Source: Arenibacter amylolyticus (GTDB taxonomy: Bacteria > Bacteroidota > Bacteroidia > Flavobacteriales > Flavobacteriaceae). From it: DNA of 64,000 nt. Position numbers and translations under genes: made by a program. The stretch covers positions 1 through 64,000 of the forward strand of contig NZ_MTAZ01000015.1 of the NCBI RefSeq assembly GCF_002150785.1. Direction: 5' to 3'. The notes beneath the pieces were generated by a model. The model saw only the letters and a program-made list of their open reading frames with translations, searched no databases and had not been told where the DNA came from. This document shows, in pieces, positions 1-5,331 of this stretch (positions are counted from its first letter, which is position 1; every line of letters begins with the position of its first letter).

Positions 1-123
1 TTTACCCTCTATTTACTACTTACACAGTTTATGGTCTAGTCCCCACTGGGCATTTATACCTAGTTTATTAAGTCTAAAGGAATTAGTTATTCCTTGGGTT
101 ATTAGATCACCTTATTATATATC

Positions 124-267
124 CTAATTTAAATTGTTTTCAAATTGGATGTTCTTATAATCAACAATCTGTAGAGACTTGGAATAACTCAATAAAAAAC
201 TCACTGTTTCCTGACTGGCTGTGGCAATCTTGCATTTATCTTGATTCTTAGAGTAAATTTTTTCCAT
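124..267 (-). CDS. 47-aa small protein following ECF sigma factor (copy A)
   Basis: An ATG-to-TAG frame of 47 codons lies on the minus strand exactly 72 bp after the stop of the sigma factor gene at 340-921. It is cysteine-poor (one Cys at residue 12), hydrophilic, with a central motif FLLSYSKSL (residues 24-32) and an ending NLN. A second 47-codon frame sits exactly 72 bp after the paralogous sigma gene (1455-1598). The two align without gaps, with 19 of 47 residues identical, including C12, K13, FLL, YSKSL and the terminal NLN. Conservation of length, spacing and motif is good evidence that this is a translated gene. No signal peptide or membrane segment is visible, so the product should be cytoplasmic. 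I know no named family. A role in modulating the co-transcribed sigma factor is inference from position only. Confidence 0.8.
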   Translation of the reverse strand: MEKIYSKNQDKCKIATASQETVSFLLSYSKSLQIVDYKNIQFENNLN

Positions 268-339
268 AAGATTATAGTATTGTTTGCATAGATAACGCCA
301 CTATATTGGAAATATTGCTCTAGTAGTTGAAAGTAATGC

Positions 340-921
340 TTAATTAGTTAAAACAATATTATTTTTCTCTATAATCTTTCTTAGGTTGATTAGGGCATAA
401 CGCATTCTACCTAATGCCGTATTAATGCTTACTCCGGTGTTTTCCGAAATTTCTTTAAAGCTCATATCCCTATAAATACGCATTAAAAGCACCTCTTTTT
501 GATCTTCTGGTAATTCTTCTATTAAACTAGTAAGATCGGAATCTATTTGTTCTTTTATTAGTCGCTTCTCTACATTTAACTCGTCATCCCCAAGAACCAA
601 AAAGATATTAAAATCATCTTTCCCCTCAAACATCGGCATTCTCTTGTTTCTTCTAAAGTGGTCTATCACCAGGTTGTGTGCAATTCTCATCACCCAAGGC
701 AAAAATTTACCCTCTTCGCTATAAGACCCCTTTTTTAAGGTCTTAATCACTTTAATAAAAGTATCCTGGAAAACATCTTCAGTAATTTCCTTGTCCAGAA
801 CCTTAGAGTAAATAAAGCTACTGATGCGTTGGTTATGTCGATTGATTAAAATCTCCAGGGCTTTTTCACTGCCGTTCATGTATTCTTTTACTAATACTGA
901 GTCATCTTTTTGCATTTCCAT
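340..921 (-). CDS. RNA polymerase sigma factor, ECF (sigma-70) family, copy A
   Basis: A 193-aa extracytoplasmic-function sigma factor, which would direct RNA polymerase to a specific promoter set. Region 2 is recognisable around residues 25-95 (FQDTFIKVIKTL and the WVMRIAHN segment). Region 4, with its helix-turn-helix, spans about residues 135-185 (ELPEDQKEVLLMRIYRDMSF, then GVSINTALGRMRYAL). It is gap-free and roughly 70% identical (by eye) to the sigma factor encoded at 1671-2252 on the same strand, so the two are a tandem duplication. No anti-sigma factor gene with a membrane segment is adjacent; instead a 47-aa protein gene follows. The divergence is largest in the linker between regions 2 and 4 (residues 95-130), so the two copies may differ in regulation more than in promoter choice. 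Confidence 0.93.
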   Translation of the reverse strand: MEMQKDDSVLVKEYMNGSEKALEILINRHNQRISSFIYSKVLDKEITEDVFQDTFIKVIKTLKKGSYSEEGKFLPWVMRIAHNLVIDHFRRNKRMPMFEGKDDFNIFLVLGDDELNVEKRLIKEQIDSDLTSLIEELPEDQKEVLLMRIYRDMSFKEISENTGVSINTALGRMRYALINLRKIIEKNNIVLTN

Positions 922-1454
922 ACATATTATTGTTTTTGGTTAAACTAGGTGCCTTCCTTTTCCGGTTGGACTTACATTGCTATGCTAACAGTTTTAAATG
1001 GCCTAGGGGGGATCGACCTAATAAACTAACAACATGATAAATGTATGTAAATGATGAAGTGGTGTGAAAAGTATGTTGTAAAACCAGCTTTTAGCGTGGT
1101 CAAACGTCGTTTTTGTGGATTTCAAGCTGTTTTTTTTATAAAAAAAGCAGTGATTAACCCCATTCATAAGCGTCTTAGTAACGACTACTCCTAATTAATG
1201 GAAAGTTATAGGAATGATAAGATACCGTGATTGAGGTACTGATAACACCCCACCTAATGAATTGTAATTGAAGGGTTGGAATACCCCTTTTCCTTTAGCA
1301 GCTTTAATTAGACACTAAGAAAGATAATGTGATAATGCAAGGGAACCATGGGAGAACTTTTCCTTAAACACTACCGCTCATTTTATAAAACCACCTCTTA
1401 GCTAACAGTTGTAGTCCTATACCTTTATAACCGTCAATAAAGAGGTAGTATAGC
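922..1454. other. Intergenic region between the two sigma modules
   Basis: About 530 bp with stops in all frames and no gene I can support. The part next to 921 should carry the promoter of sigma copy A, but I find no convincing TAnnTTTG element there. At 1127-1150 there is an almost pure T/A hairpin: CTG plus a T-run paired with an A-run plus CAG, about 11 bp with a two-base loop. Its stem is too A/T-rich to be a convincing terminator. Nothing else stands out. Confidence 0.5.
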
Positions 1455-1598
1455 CTAATTAAGATTTGGACCTGTTTTCTTATCCTCACCATCACCAGTG
1501 GTCAAGGATTTGGAGTAGTTTAATAGAAATGCAATTTTGGAAGGGGAAGTAACTACAAGCTTACAGCTATCCTTGGCGTCAACGTTATATTTCTCCAT
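1455..1598 (-). CDS. 47-aa small protein following ECF sigma factor (copy B)
   Basis: A 47-codon ATG-to-TAG frame exactly 72 bp downstream of the sigma factor gene at 1671-2252. It has the same length, orientation and spacing as the frame at 124-267 downstream of the other sigma factor. Shared features are an MEK start, Asp10, Cys12-Lys13, Ser18, FLLxYSKSL at residues 24-32, Asp36 and a terminal NLN. The segment after residue 32 has diverged strongly (acidic and glycine-rich here, aromatic in copy A), while the core and the C-terminal tripeptide are kept. The product is soluble and uncharacterised. Because the sigma factor and this gene were duplicated together and both remain open, they probably work as a unit; that is inference. 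Confidence 0.8.
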   Translation of the reverse strand: MEKYNVDAKDSCKLVVTSPSKIAFLLNYSKSLTTGDGEDKKTGPNLN

Positions 1599-1670
1599 AG
1601 GGCATGTCTTAGGGACACCAAAGGTATATTAAAATGATGGAGGCCTCCTATATTTCTGTTTTATAGTTTA

Positions 1671-2252
1671 TTAATTCGTTAAAACTATATTATACTTATC
1701 AATGAGTTTTCGCAGATTAATGAGTGCATAACGCATTCTACCTAGGGCTGTATTAATACTTACACCCGTATTTTCAGAGATTTCCTTAAAGCTCATATCC
1801 TTAAAGATACGCATCTCCAGGACCTCTAACTGCTCTACCGGCAACTCCTTAATAATTACCTTTAGCTCTGCGTCTATCTGGTCCTTAATCCATTGTCGCT
1901 CAACGTTTAATCCCTCATCTCTAATTACGGAAAACAGATTATAATCGTTATTGGTTTCAAATTTAGGCATCCTCTGGCTCTTCCGATAATAATCTATAAT
2001 GAGGTTATGCGATATTCTCATGACCCAAGGCAAAAATTTACCCTCTTCATTATACTTACCTCTTTTTAAAGTCTTTATAACCTTTATAAAGGTGTCCTGA
2101 AAAATATCTTCCGTGATTTCCCTATCCTGAACTTTGGAGTAGATAAAGCTACTAAGGCGTTTATTGTGTCGGTTGATTAATATTTCCAGTGAGCTTTCGT
2201 CTCCCTGCATATATTTTTTTACCAATACCGAGTCATCAATCAATAGTTCCAT
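1671..2252 (-). CDS. RNA polymerase sigma factor, ECF (sigma-70) family, copy B
   Basis: A 193-aa ECF sigma factor, the same length as the paralogue at 340-921. Region 2 carries EITEDIFQDTFIKVIKTL (about residues 45-62) and GKFLPWVMRISHN. Region 4 carries DMSFKEISENTGVSINTALG (about residues 152-171). The C-terminal 45 residues are almost identical to copy A, including the recognition helix, which suggests overlapping -35 recognition. No transmembrane anti-sigma gene is adjacent; a 47-codon gene follows 72 bp downstream. The gene is divergent from uvrA at 2545. Assignment to the ECF class is secure. The regulon and inducing signal cannot be read from the sequence. Confidence 0.93.
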   Translation of the reverse strand: MELLIDDSVLVKKYMQGDESSLEILINRHNKRLSSFIYSKVQDREITEDIFQDTFIKVIKTLKRGKYNEEGKFLPWVMRISHNLIIDYYRKSQRMPKFETNNDYNLFSVIRDEGLNVERQWIKDQIDAELKVIIKELPVEQLEVLEMRIFKDMSFKEISENTGVSINTALGRMRYALINLRKLIDKYNIVLTN

Positions 2253-2519
2253 ACCAATTACTTTTATTTAGATCAATAAGTGTGTCGCCCTTTGTGATAA
2301 AAGGTGAAAGGACAACATAAATTATTTATAAAAAGTAATTGTGTTACGTATAGGCTATTTAGGGTTTGTTGAAGACCAAATATATAAAAAATTAAATATA
2401 TCCCCGATGTTTTTCTACCAAGTAACCTTTCTAAGGGGTCATCTTATGGCTACCATCCTTTATAAGGTCTAGAAAGGCATGGAATTCCAGGAACATTAGC
2501 GAATAATTTGCACATATTG

Positions 2520-2527
2520 TATCTTTG
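2520..2527 (+). promoter_or_regulatory. -7 promoter element of uvrA
   Basis: TATCTTTG matches the Bacteroidota TAnnTTTG -7 consensus and ends 17 bp before the uvrA ATG, implying a leader of only about ten bases. No good -33 TTTG/TTG element is seen at the usual spacing, so strength is uncertain. Confidence 0.5.
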
Positions 2528-2544
2528 CGGCCTTAAAGAATCGT

Positions 2545-5331
2545 ATGACCTCTATAAAAGATATCAATCCAAAGCACAACATCATTATCAAGGGAGCCAA
2601 GCTCCACAATTTAAAGAATATCGATGTAGTAATCCCCAGGAATAAATTAGTGGTCGTTACCGGACTATCTGGATCGGGAAAGTCTAGTTTAGCATTTGAT
2701 ACCTTATATGCAGAGGGCCAGCGTAGATATGTAGAGAGTCTTTCCTCCTATGCCAGGCAGTTCTTAGGTAGATTGGATAAACCCAAGGTAGATTATATTA
2801 AGGGAATTGCCCCAGCCATTGCTATAGAGCAAAAGGTAAACTCTACCAACCCTAGGTCTACCGTAGGGACTACCACCGAAATCTATGACTATTTAAAATT
2901 ATTATTTGCCAGAATTGGAAAGACCTTCTCCCCTATTTCTGGAAAAGAGGTAAAGAAACATACGGTAACAGATGTTATAGAACATGTAAAAACCTATGAG
3001 GAAGGTACAAAACTACTTTTACTGGCACCTATAAAAATTAGTAAGGACAGAGACCCCATAAAATCGCTTCAGCTATTCTCCAAGCAGGGATTTGCAAGGA
3101 TTTTATATAAAGGAGAGGTAATTAGGATTGAGGAAGATTTAAAAGATATAGGTCCAGAATTTGATTTAGTAGTGGATCGGATCATCTATAAGGATGAGGA
3201 AGATTTTTACAATAGATTGGGCAATGCCATAGACACCGCTTTCTTTGAAGGCAAAGGGTCCTGCGCCATTCAAGAGCTGTCTACCGGTCATAGGACCAAT
3301 TTCAGTAATAAATTTGAGTTGGACGGAATGACCTTCCTAGATCCAAACGTTCATCTATTTAGCTTTAATAACCCCTATGGCGCCTGTCCCACCTGTGAAG
3401 GATATGGCGATGTAATTGGTATAGACGAAGAGTTGGTGGTTCCCAATACGGCTCTTTCCGTTTTTGAAAATGCTATCTATCCGTGGCGTGGGGAACGTAT
3501 GGGTCAGCACAGAGATCAATTGGTAAACACCGCCTATAAATTCGATTTTCCCATCCATAAGCCATGGTATCAACTAAGTCAGGAGCAAAAAGATCTAGTA
3601 TGGGAAGGCAATAGTTATTTTACAGGACTGAATCGTTTTTTCGAAAAACTGGAAGAGAAGAGCTATAAGATTCAAAATAGGGTAATGTTATCCAGATATA
3701 GGGGTAAAACCCGATGTGCTACCTGTAAGGGCAAACGTCTTAGAAAGGAGGCAGATTATGTAAAAATAGCGGATAAATCCATTTCGGATTTAGTAGACCT
3801 GCCCATTGGGAAATTGATCTATTTTTTCCAAGAACTTCAATTAAATGCCAAGGATGAAAAGATTGCCTCTAGGTTGCTAAAGGAAATAAACAGCAGGTTG
3901 GGGTTCTTAGATAACGTGGGACTAAGCTATTTAACCCTGAACCGAAAGTCTAACACCCTCTCCGGTGGGGAAAGTCAGCGTATTAACTTGGCTACCTCCC
4001 TGGGAAGTAGCTTGGTAGGGTCTATGTATATCTTGGACGAACCTAGTATTGGACTTCACCCTAGGGATACAGAAAACCTTATAGAGGTCTTAAAAGCCTT
4101 GCGCGATTTGGGCAATACCGTTATAGTGGTAGAGCACGATGAGGATATAATGAAAGCTGCAGACCAGGTAATCGATATTGGTCCTAAAGCAGGTACCCAT
4201 GGTGGTGAGGTAGTTGCACAGGGAACTCTAGAAGAAATATGCAAATCCAATTCACTTACTGCCGCCTACCTGAATGGCAGCAAGGAAATTGCCATTCCAC
4301 AGAAACGACGGTCCTTCAATAATTTTATTGAGATTACAGGCGCACGAGAAAATAACCTAAAGAATATAGATGTTACTTTTCCCCTTAACGTGCTAACAGT
4401 TATTACCGGAGTTTCCGGAAGCGGTAAAAGTACATTGGTGAAACGCCTCCTATACCCCCTAGTACTTAAGGAAATAGGCGGGTTTGGAGAAAAAGCGGGA
4501 CAGTTTACCAGTATCAAAGGAGATTTTGAGACGCTTAAGAACGTAGAATATGTAGACCAAAACCCTATAGGACGCTCTTCCCGTTCCAATCCGGTTACCT
4601 ACATTAAGGCCTATGATGATATTCGCAACCTATTTTCGTCCCAAAAGCTTAGTAAGCTAAGAGGATATCAACCCAAACATTTCTCCTTTAACGTAGAAGG
4701 CGGACGATGTGAAAAGTGCAAGGGGGAAGGCGAAATTACGGTAGAAATGCAATTTATGGCCGATGTGCATTTGGTATGTGAAACCTGTAACGGTAAAAGA
4801 TTTAAAAAGGAAGTCTTGGAGGTGAAACTGGCAGATGCTAATATCGATGATGTTCTTAATATGACCATTGATGATGCCATCCACTTTTTCGAAGAAAACA
4901 ATCAGTCTAGAATAGTTACCAAACTAAAACCCCTACAAGATGTTGGCTTGGGCTACGTTACCCTAGGGCAGTCCTCCTCTACCCTTTCCGGTGGAGAAGC
5001 CCAACGTATTAAGCTTGCCTCCTTTCTTGTAAAAGGGACTACCAAGGACAAAGCCCTTTTTATATTTGATGAACCAACCACAGGTCTCCATTTTCACGAT
5101 ATAAAGAAGTTATTGAAATCTTTTGATGCCTTACTCTCCAAAGGGCATTCTATTGTGGTTATAGAACATAATATAGATTTGATAAAGTGTGCCGACTATA
5201 TTATTGATTTAGGACCAGAAGGCGGAGAAAAAGGCGGTCATTTAATTACCCAAGGAGTACCCGAACTGGTTGCCGAGAACAAAACGTCCTATACCGCCAA
5301 GTATTTAAAAGAAAAATTAGATAGCCAATAA
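2545..5331 (+). CDS. uvrA: Excinuclease ABC subunit A (UvrA)
   Basis: UvrA, the damage-recognition ATPase of nucleotide excision repair, which works as a dimer with UvrB in the cytoplasm. The 928 aa contain two ABC modules. Walker A motifs are GLSGSGKSS at about residue 40 and GVSGSGKST at about 622. Signature motifs LSGGESQR (about 472) and LSGGEAQR (about 814) are followed by ILDEPSIGLH and IFDEPTTGLH. The C-terminal zinc module is complete (CEKC and CETC, separated by about 20 residues). In the first zinc module only the second pair, CPTC at about 281-284, is present: the expected first CxxC pair, near residues 248-255, reads NFSNKF. CATC is the only pair of the middle cysteine motif. Length is typical of UvrA. 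The gene stands alone, divergent from the sigma modules, with a -7 element 17 bp before the ATG. Confidence 0.97.
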   Translation: MTSIKDINPKHNIIIKGAKLHNLKNIDVVIPRNKLVVVTGLSGSGKSSLAFDTLYAEGQRRYVESLSSYARQFLGRLDKPKVDYIKGIAPAIAIEQKVNSTNPRSTVGTTTEIYDYLKLLFARIGKTFSPISGKEVKKHTVTDVIEHVKTYEEGTKLLLLAPIKISKDRDPIKSLQLFSKQGFARILYKGEVIRIEEDLKDIGPEFDLVVDRIIYKDEEDFYNRLGNAIDTAFFEGKGSCAIQELSTGHRTNFSNKFELDGMTFLDPNVHLFSFNNPYGACPTCEGYGDVIGIDEELVVPNTALSVFENAIYPWRGERMGQHRDQLVNTAYKFDFPIHKPWYQLSQEQKDLVWEGNSYFTGLNRFFEKLEEKSYKIQNRVMLSRYRGKTRCATCKGKRLRKEADYVKIADKSISDLVDLPIGKLIYFFQELQLNAKDEKIASRLLKEINSRLGFLDNVGLSYLTLNRKSNTLSGGESQRINLATSLGSSLVGSMYILDEPSIGLHPRDTENLIEVLKALRDLGNTVIVVEHDEDIMKAADQVIDIGPKAGTHGGEVVAQGTLEEICKSNSLTAAYLNGSKEIAIPQKRRSFNNFIEITGARENNLKNIDVTFPLNVLTVITGVSGSGKSTLVKRLLYPLVLKEIGGFGEKAGQFTSIKGDFETLKNVEYVDQNPIGRSSRSNPVTYIKAYDDIRNLFSSQKLSKLRGYQPKHFSFNVEGGRCEKCKGEGEITVEMQFMADVHLVCETCNGKRFKKEVLEVKLADANIDDVLNMTIDDAIHFFEENNQSRIVTKLKPLQDVGLGYVTLGQSSSTLSGGEAQRIKLASFLVKGTTKDKALFIFDEPTTGLHFHDIKKLLKSFDALLSKGHSIVVIEHNIDLIKCADYIIDLGPEGGEKGGHLITQGVPELVAENKTSYTAKYLKEKLDSQ

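Follow-up and report, generated by a model that had tools for sequence, protein, structure and literature searches.

Many members of the class Bacteroidia appear to carry an overlooked tiny protein behind a widely shared sigma factor

We analyzed a 64,000-nt stretch of Arenibacter amylolyticus DNA (contig NZ_MTAZ01000015.1 of assembly GCF_002150785.1, positions 1 to 64,000), referred to as the window, in which two genes for extracytoplasmic function (ECF) sigma factors are each followed by a gene for a 47-aa protein. The small protein is conserved behind the orthologous sigma factor, and the arrangement is neither a product of chance nor a local one. Judging from genome comparisons, many members of the class Bacteroidia appear to carry this overlooked protein. 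We give slightly better than an even chance to a two-gene module, in which the ECF sigma factor, a probable orthologue of SigP, would be paired with a soluble, miniaturised relative of anti-sigma domains acting in negative feedback. The small protein could then serve as an integral brake on a pathway that is probably connected with protein secretion.

Conservation of the small gene behind the sigma factor

All four genes lie on the minus strand. Sigma factor A (340..921), the trailing copy, is followed by gap A (268..339) and small gene A (124..267); sigma factor B (1671..2252), the leading copy of the tandem duplication, is followed by gap B (1599..1670) and small gene B (1455..1598). An earlier note on this DNA had described two 193-aa sigma genes, each with a 47-codon open reading frame (ORF) 72 bp behind it, and the coordinates bear this out, the two sigma factors being 73% identical. 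Its gap-free alignment of the small proteins, with 19 of 47 residues identical and FLLxYSKSL, C12-K13 and NLN in common, was reproduced as well. Small protein A, a short form, contains the conserved helix segment ETVSFLLSYSKSL and the C-terminal NLN; small protein B is of the same family and has a more divergent tail. Both sigma factors exceed the Pfam cut-offs for PF04542, PF08281 and PF04545 (Sigma70 regions 2 and 4) and are ECF sigma factors by this region 2 plus region 4 domain test. When a sigma profile was run against this genome, the two copies came out at 1.4e-98 and 2.6e-95, and the third-best sigma factor at 1.4e-20. Neither 47-aa protein matched a Pfam or NCBIfam model, and no relative was found in viral contigs.

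Among 18 copies from the genus, small ORF A gave a median dN/dS of 0.127 and a maximum of 0.346 (141 of 153 pairs usable), and the sigma gene a median of 0.019 (131 of 153 pairs usable). A two-sequence profile found matches in 41 of 60 relatives, among them all 17 further genomes of the genus with at least one match apiece, and no small-ORF row of this search contained an internal stop. The small protein is under purifying selection. The earlier note had attributed the retention of frames, lengths and spacings to selection, and had suggested looking at related genomes and at dN/dS between the small ORFs. On both counts the protein part of its claim stands: the frame is kept downstream of the orthologous sigma gene, and the ratio is far below 1. 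The spacing part does not, since the gap measures 70-74 bp in most near relatives and 39-164 bp over all short forms, a variation that rules out the exact 72 bp as a selected feature. The relative reading frame of the two genes also differs among relatives.

A 31-sequence profile found matches in 170 of 296 genomes from the order and, for the phylum, in 59 of 395; both this and the two-sequence profile were built from short forms, and longer forms were missed. The 126 fetched loci (L001-L126), which are related to each other and in several cases come from one genome, contained 152 small-protein matches, 126 of them with the sigma gene directly upstream on the same strand. Among the other 26, we read 20 as members of tandem pairs whose own sigma gene is cut off, each of them beginning no more than 370 nt from the end of its locus, next to a complete pair; one is an apparent chance match (L094), and in five the small gene is displaced or separated from the sigma gene. 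One entry of the set, L103, is a 50-base stretch of filler.

At the level of the class, a sigma orthologue at E 1e-60 or better was present in 169 of 198 genomes, with one match in each of 168 and two in the present one. Using profiles from which the tested family was always excluded, we found the small gene downstream of the sigma gene in 54 of 84 class loci, representing 34 of 48 families, and the antisense control gave 0 of 84. These loci comprise 24 from an earlier sigma search and 60 that we chose by hand among the 169 positive genomes, taking between one and three loci per family; the profile seeds were picked by eye from the class loci, and weaker sigma matches (L151-L155) were left out of the downstream inspection. 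A profile made from Flavobacteriales short forms alone also ranked the class ORFs first, with a best antisense E of 0.18. We additionally searched for the sigma factor in 26 genomes, three with a displaced small gene and 23, a listed subset, without a profile match. Twelve of the 23 were also without the sigma factor; behind the sigma gene of the other 11, inspection by eye found a family ORF missed by the profile in seven, a doubtful one in two and none in two.

The flanks differ: Flavobacteriaceae loci have uvrA, nth and a peroxiredoxin gene there, family f5 has metK and a nucleotidase gene, and one locus (L040) has recQ, yet the sigma gene and the small gene stay paired. Exceptions are one genome with another gene between the two (G077) and four in which the small gene lies away from a sigma gene that is still present (G118, G055, G332 and G367). 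Because of these four, the small protein fits one acting in trans. In the case of L132 (from G332) and L091, an ORF that looks transposase-like by eye stands directly behind the sigma gene, and the small gene is found beside nth about 1.5 Mb away.

A promoter-like element in the gap and the leader of sigma gene B

Gap A contains the element CAATAT-N14-CGTTA (293..317, minus strand), 25 nt upstream of the start codon (ATG) of small gene A. Counting gaps of at least 30 nt (158 in all), the loose pattern nA(A/T)TAW-N13..15-CGTTW occurred in 111, against about 1.25 expected in shuffled gaps, and the strict pattern AATAW-N14-CGTTA in 68, against about 0.09. As many as 106 of the 111 elements lie 19-44 nt before the ATG of the small gene (median 28, interquartile range 26-31); their distance from the sigma stop codon, 0-245 nt, is far from constant. 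The element is more than 100 times denser in the gaps (8.53 per kb) than elsewhere in the same loci (0.062 per kb), and within the genus gap A is more conserved (median 0.79) than the third codon positions of the sigma gene (0.61). CAATAW-N14-CGTTW resembles an ECF promoter that belongs to the small gene and has a -10 box of the CGT type.

The exact form CAATAW-N14-CGTTW has 14 sites in this genome (L298-L311), compared with 5 in a reversed control, and these may represent a small regulon. Some of them precede ORFs, such as one for a 57-aa membrane-like protein (L311) and one for a 304-aa protein (L302). In Flavobacterium psychrophilum, SM6 promoters with a CGT-type box are described in front of type IX secretion genes (PMC9723704); the likeness to our element concerns the -10-type box.

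The two copies of the module divide these features between them: trailing copy A retains the element behind its sigma gene, and leading copy B retains a sigma leader with an inverted repeat. In the sigma tree, Arenibacter copy B is separate from copy A and clusters with first copies from other genera (support 0.83); the grouping of all copy-A genes stays below 0.8 support. The multi-genus copy-B clade rules out a recent duplication within the genus, and the duplication is older than the genus. We propose that the sigma B leader is the ancestral leader of the sigma gene. Its inverted repeat, ATTACTTTT...AAAAGTAAT (window 2256-2340, minus strand), occurs in the leaders of relatives too and ends just before the ATG. 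Here the distal arm is AATTACTTTT (2331..2340) and the proximal arm, directly before the sigma B ATG, is AAAAGTAATT (2256..2265), both read on the minus strand; the repeat was not seen before sigma A. Over 22 sequences, 90.0% of the cells are paired and three pairs are changed on both sides, a number that shuffles reach in 69 of 500 cases. RNAalifold gave no consensus on the sigma leaders. The repeat is equally compatible with a protein-binding (operator) palindrome and with an RNA stem.

Upstream, outside the module, lies the divergent uvrA (2545..5331, plus strand), which occupies the same position in most Flavobacteriaceae loci inspected. Because window position 1 is the end of the contig, the downstream neighbor is out of view; a convergent nth gene is expected beyond that end. 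Within these bounds, the remark in the earlier note that no membrane anti-sigma gene adjoins the module holds.

Forms of the small protein and identity of the sigma factor

The small protein comes in short (44-50 aa), medium (55-86 aa) and long (72-81 aa) forms, in a 90-aa form from family f8 of the same order, and in a membrane-type form of 173-174 aa from family f70. With exceptions, these share the start M-x-K-x-x-T/S and the helix P(S/K)xxTIxxILNYSKxL, and the f8 forms combine the domain, the helix and a VLN/ILN end. The C-terminal residue is Asn in 143 of 165 small proteins and in 31 of 31 aligned short forms. In the two f70 loci (L193 and L242), the gene behind the sigma gene encodes this last form, in which a hydrophobic stretch of membrane type was noted by eye, and these proteins are apparently ordinary anti-sigma factors.

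We compared the forms profile against profile at uniform settings, with 50 column shuffles each (best shuffle score in brackets). Consecutive forms were linked at scores far above their shuffles: short with medium 61.7 (14.3), medium with long 52.8 (20.5), medium with f8 40.6 (13.3), f8 with long 115.0 (17.0) and long with the membrane form 69.2 (13.3). The long form in turn scored 43.4 (14.2) against the N-terminal domain of anti-sigma factors named as such by NCBI, and the long, f8 and membrane forms together scored 47.5 (15.3) against a wider anti-sigma set. The f8 and short forms are both placed between the sigma gene and nth, and this agreement in position also supports the chain of homology. 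From its spread, we infer that the long form is ancestral.

In solved complexes of class I anti-sigma domains (ASDI), helices 1-3 bind sigma4 and helix 4 binds sigma2 (PMC7406223). The long relatives align across the whole ASDI domain. The 47-aa protein does not have the three-helix bundle; it retains only the segment of the last helix, which corresponds to the fourth helix of class I, and the gene sits beside its ECF sigma gene as ASDI genes do. Through the chain of longer forms, the 47-aa protein is probably a miniaturised anti-sigma domain. Against solved structures, the sigma profile gave 26 matches, all to other sigma factors; the long-form profile found no anti-sigma structure there, only weak unrelated matches (best E 0.027).

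As for the sigma factor, SigP of Porphyromonas gingivalis (PGN_0274) is described as a 193-aa ECF sigma factor (PMC4800418, PMC7323717, PMC10951265). Homologues of SigP from 177 taxa were aligned in a survey of type IX secretion (PMC7323717), and a single homologue is reported in F. johnsoniae (PMC10951265). Because the factor studied here has the same length, because its class distribution is of this kind (a single match at E 1e-60 in each of the 168 other positive genomes), and in view of these published descriptions, it is a probable orthologue of SigP, the factor that in Porphyromonas is linked with type IX secretion.

Negative feedback, its rivals and known systems

Taken together, these data suggest the following scheme. 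The sigma factor would transcribe the small gene from the CAATAW-N14-CGTTW element; the small protein would bind sigma region 2 through the helix equivalent to helix 4 of class I; and, once bound, it would limit sigma activity, closing a negative feedback loop. By sequence, the forms make up a series of relatives leading from a membrane-type, anti-sigma-like protein through the soluble long form to the short form. The homology chain to anti-sigma domains and the long-term adjacency point to the sigma factor itself as the target. The earlier note had taken the small protein for a possible partner or regulator of the sigma factor, as yet uncharacterised, or for a protein under its control; this suggestion gains support from the chain and from the promoter-like element. 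A bolder version, which we regard as doubtful, would be that the SigP-like sigma factors of the class, which have had no anti-sigma gene assigned to them, have possessed an anti-sigma factor all along in most lineages, namely a single sigma2-binding helix derived from a membrane anti-sigma factor, with its own sigma-dependent promoter and a conserved C-terminal tail that serves as a release or degradation signal and in this way determines the output of type IX secretion.

Several observations weigh against a feedback module, beginning with the homology. Direct comparisons of the short form gave no signal with f8 (9.0), the membrane form (7.5) or anti-sigma domains (7.2), and the medium form scored 12.7 against anti-sigma domains, under its own shuffles (14.0). 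Because of this, the anti-sigma link of the 47-aa protein is a transitive one, running through the chain of longer forms. The short form does score 30.0 with the long form (shuffles at most 15.3), over about 20 columns. None of the tested forms reached a curated anti-sigma or zf-HC2 cut-off; the best, membrane form L242 against the NCBI anti-sigma model NF052375, came to E 5.4e-8, below the cut-off, and the call of a membrane segment in L193 and L242 comes from visual inspection. Since the short form is without helices 1-3, it may not inhibit. The predicted fold of a sigma-gap-small chain (pLDDT 63.6, pTM 0.43) is too uncertain for contacts; it places a helix at residues 19-31 of the small protein, with pLDDT of about 50-60.

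Other points concern the element and the distribution. The element was not matched in 47 of the 158 gaps, a number of which hold near-variants such as CGTTG, and five of the 111 matches sit farther from the ATG (52-171 nt) and could be due to chance. Gap B of this genome lacks it, and A. certesii (L032) and A. latericius (L033) likewise have no CGTTW element in their copy-B gaps. Behind the 14 genomic sites, no type IX secretion gene was recognised by eye. Further, the small gene was not found in 30 of the 84 class loci, including all seven of family f18 and all three of family f19, and two of the four small genes that lie apart from the sigma gene match only weakly (G332, E 0.0014; G367, E 0.004).

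The main rival, which we consider unlikely, holds that the small protein is a positive partner whose remaining helix stabilises the sigma factor or passes it on, for instance to the response regulator PorX. The loss of helices 1-3, and with them of the sigma4-blocking bundle, would suit such a role. In P. gingivalis, SigP is reported to be barely detectable without PorX and to bind it (PMC4800418), and the present genome encodes a PorX-like receiver-PglZ protein. The prevalence of Asn at the C-terminus (143 of 165) also looks as though a partner reads this end. However, the homologous long and membrane forms resemble ordinary anti-sigma factors, and a promoter of its own behind the sigma gene suggests feedback.

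It is less probable still that the small protein is a mere member of the regulon, switched on by the sigma factor and acting elsewhere, for example on the secretion machinery. Such a role would agree with the great constancy of the promoter-like element in the gap and with the move of the gene away from the sigma gene in a few genomes, but the anti-sigma chain and the lasting adjacency to one particular sigma factor speak for the sigma factor as target. That a non-coding RNA or 3' end is the conserved entity and the ORF incidental is highly improbable: the gap is well conserved in the genus, and F. psychrophilum is described as having Rfp11, a conserved RNA that is classed as putatively regulatory and has an SM6 promoter of the ECF type (PMC9723704), but the dN/dS of 0.127, the lack of internal stops, the protein homology to longer forms and the absence of any Rfam match across window 1-3000 speak against it. 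Rfp11 could instead be the transcript of a small gene of this kind.

Of the 198 genomes sampled from a very large bacterial class, 169 have the sigma factor of the feedback module, which is probably the controller of type IX secretion. Only 6% of Bacteroidetes ECF sigma factors are reported to have a class I anti-sigma neighbor, the regulation of the rest being left open (PMC7406223). If the module is real, such a small, conserved partner made from a promoter of its own would give a direct answer, open to experiment, to how one of these factors is controlled. It would also reveal to what extent an anti-sigma domain can shrink and, in laboratory flavobacteria, provide a small handle for studying secretion and perhaps gliding. 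Searches of open-licence PubMed Central papers, only some of them aimed at the small protein, gave no description of it, most subscription papers lying beyond their scope.

Among known systems, the closest are the class I anti-sigma factors, such as RseA, ChrR, RsiW and RskA. As in these, the small gene stands beside the ECF sigma gene, the long relatives align over the whole domain, and the retained helix is the last one, described as sigma2-binding (PMC7406223). Unlike them, the short form has neither the three-helix bundle nor a membrane segment, and measures 44-50 residues with a C-terminal Asn (31 of 31). The class II anti-sigma factor CnrY is likewise a short segment that holds an ECF sigma factor with helices (PMC7406223), but it wraps both sigma domains with two helices, and the likeness is one of description. 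With SigP of P. gingivalis and its PorX/PorY system, the module shares the 193-aa ECF sigma factor and, in this genome, a PorX-like protein. For four other ECF genes of P. gingivalis, the available text of PMC7712824 lists candidate anti-sigma genes downstream; for sigP it gives none.

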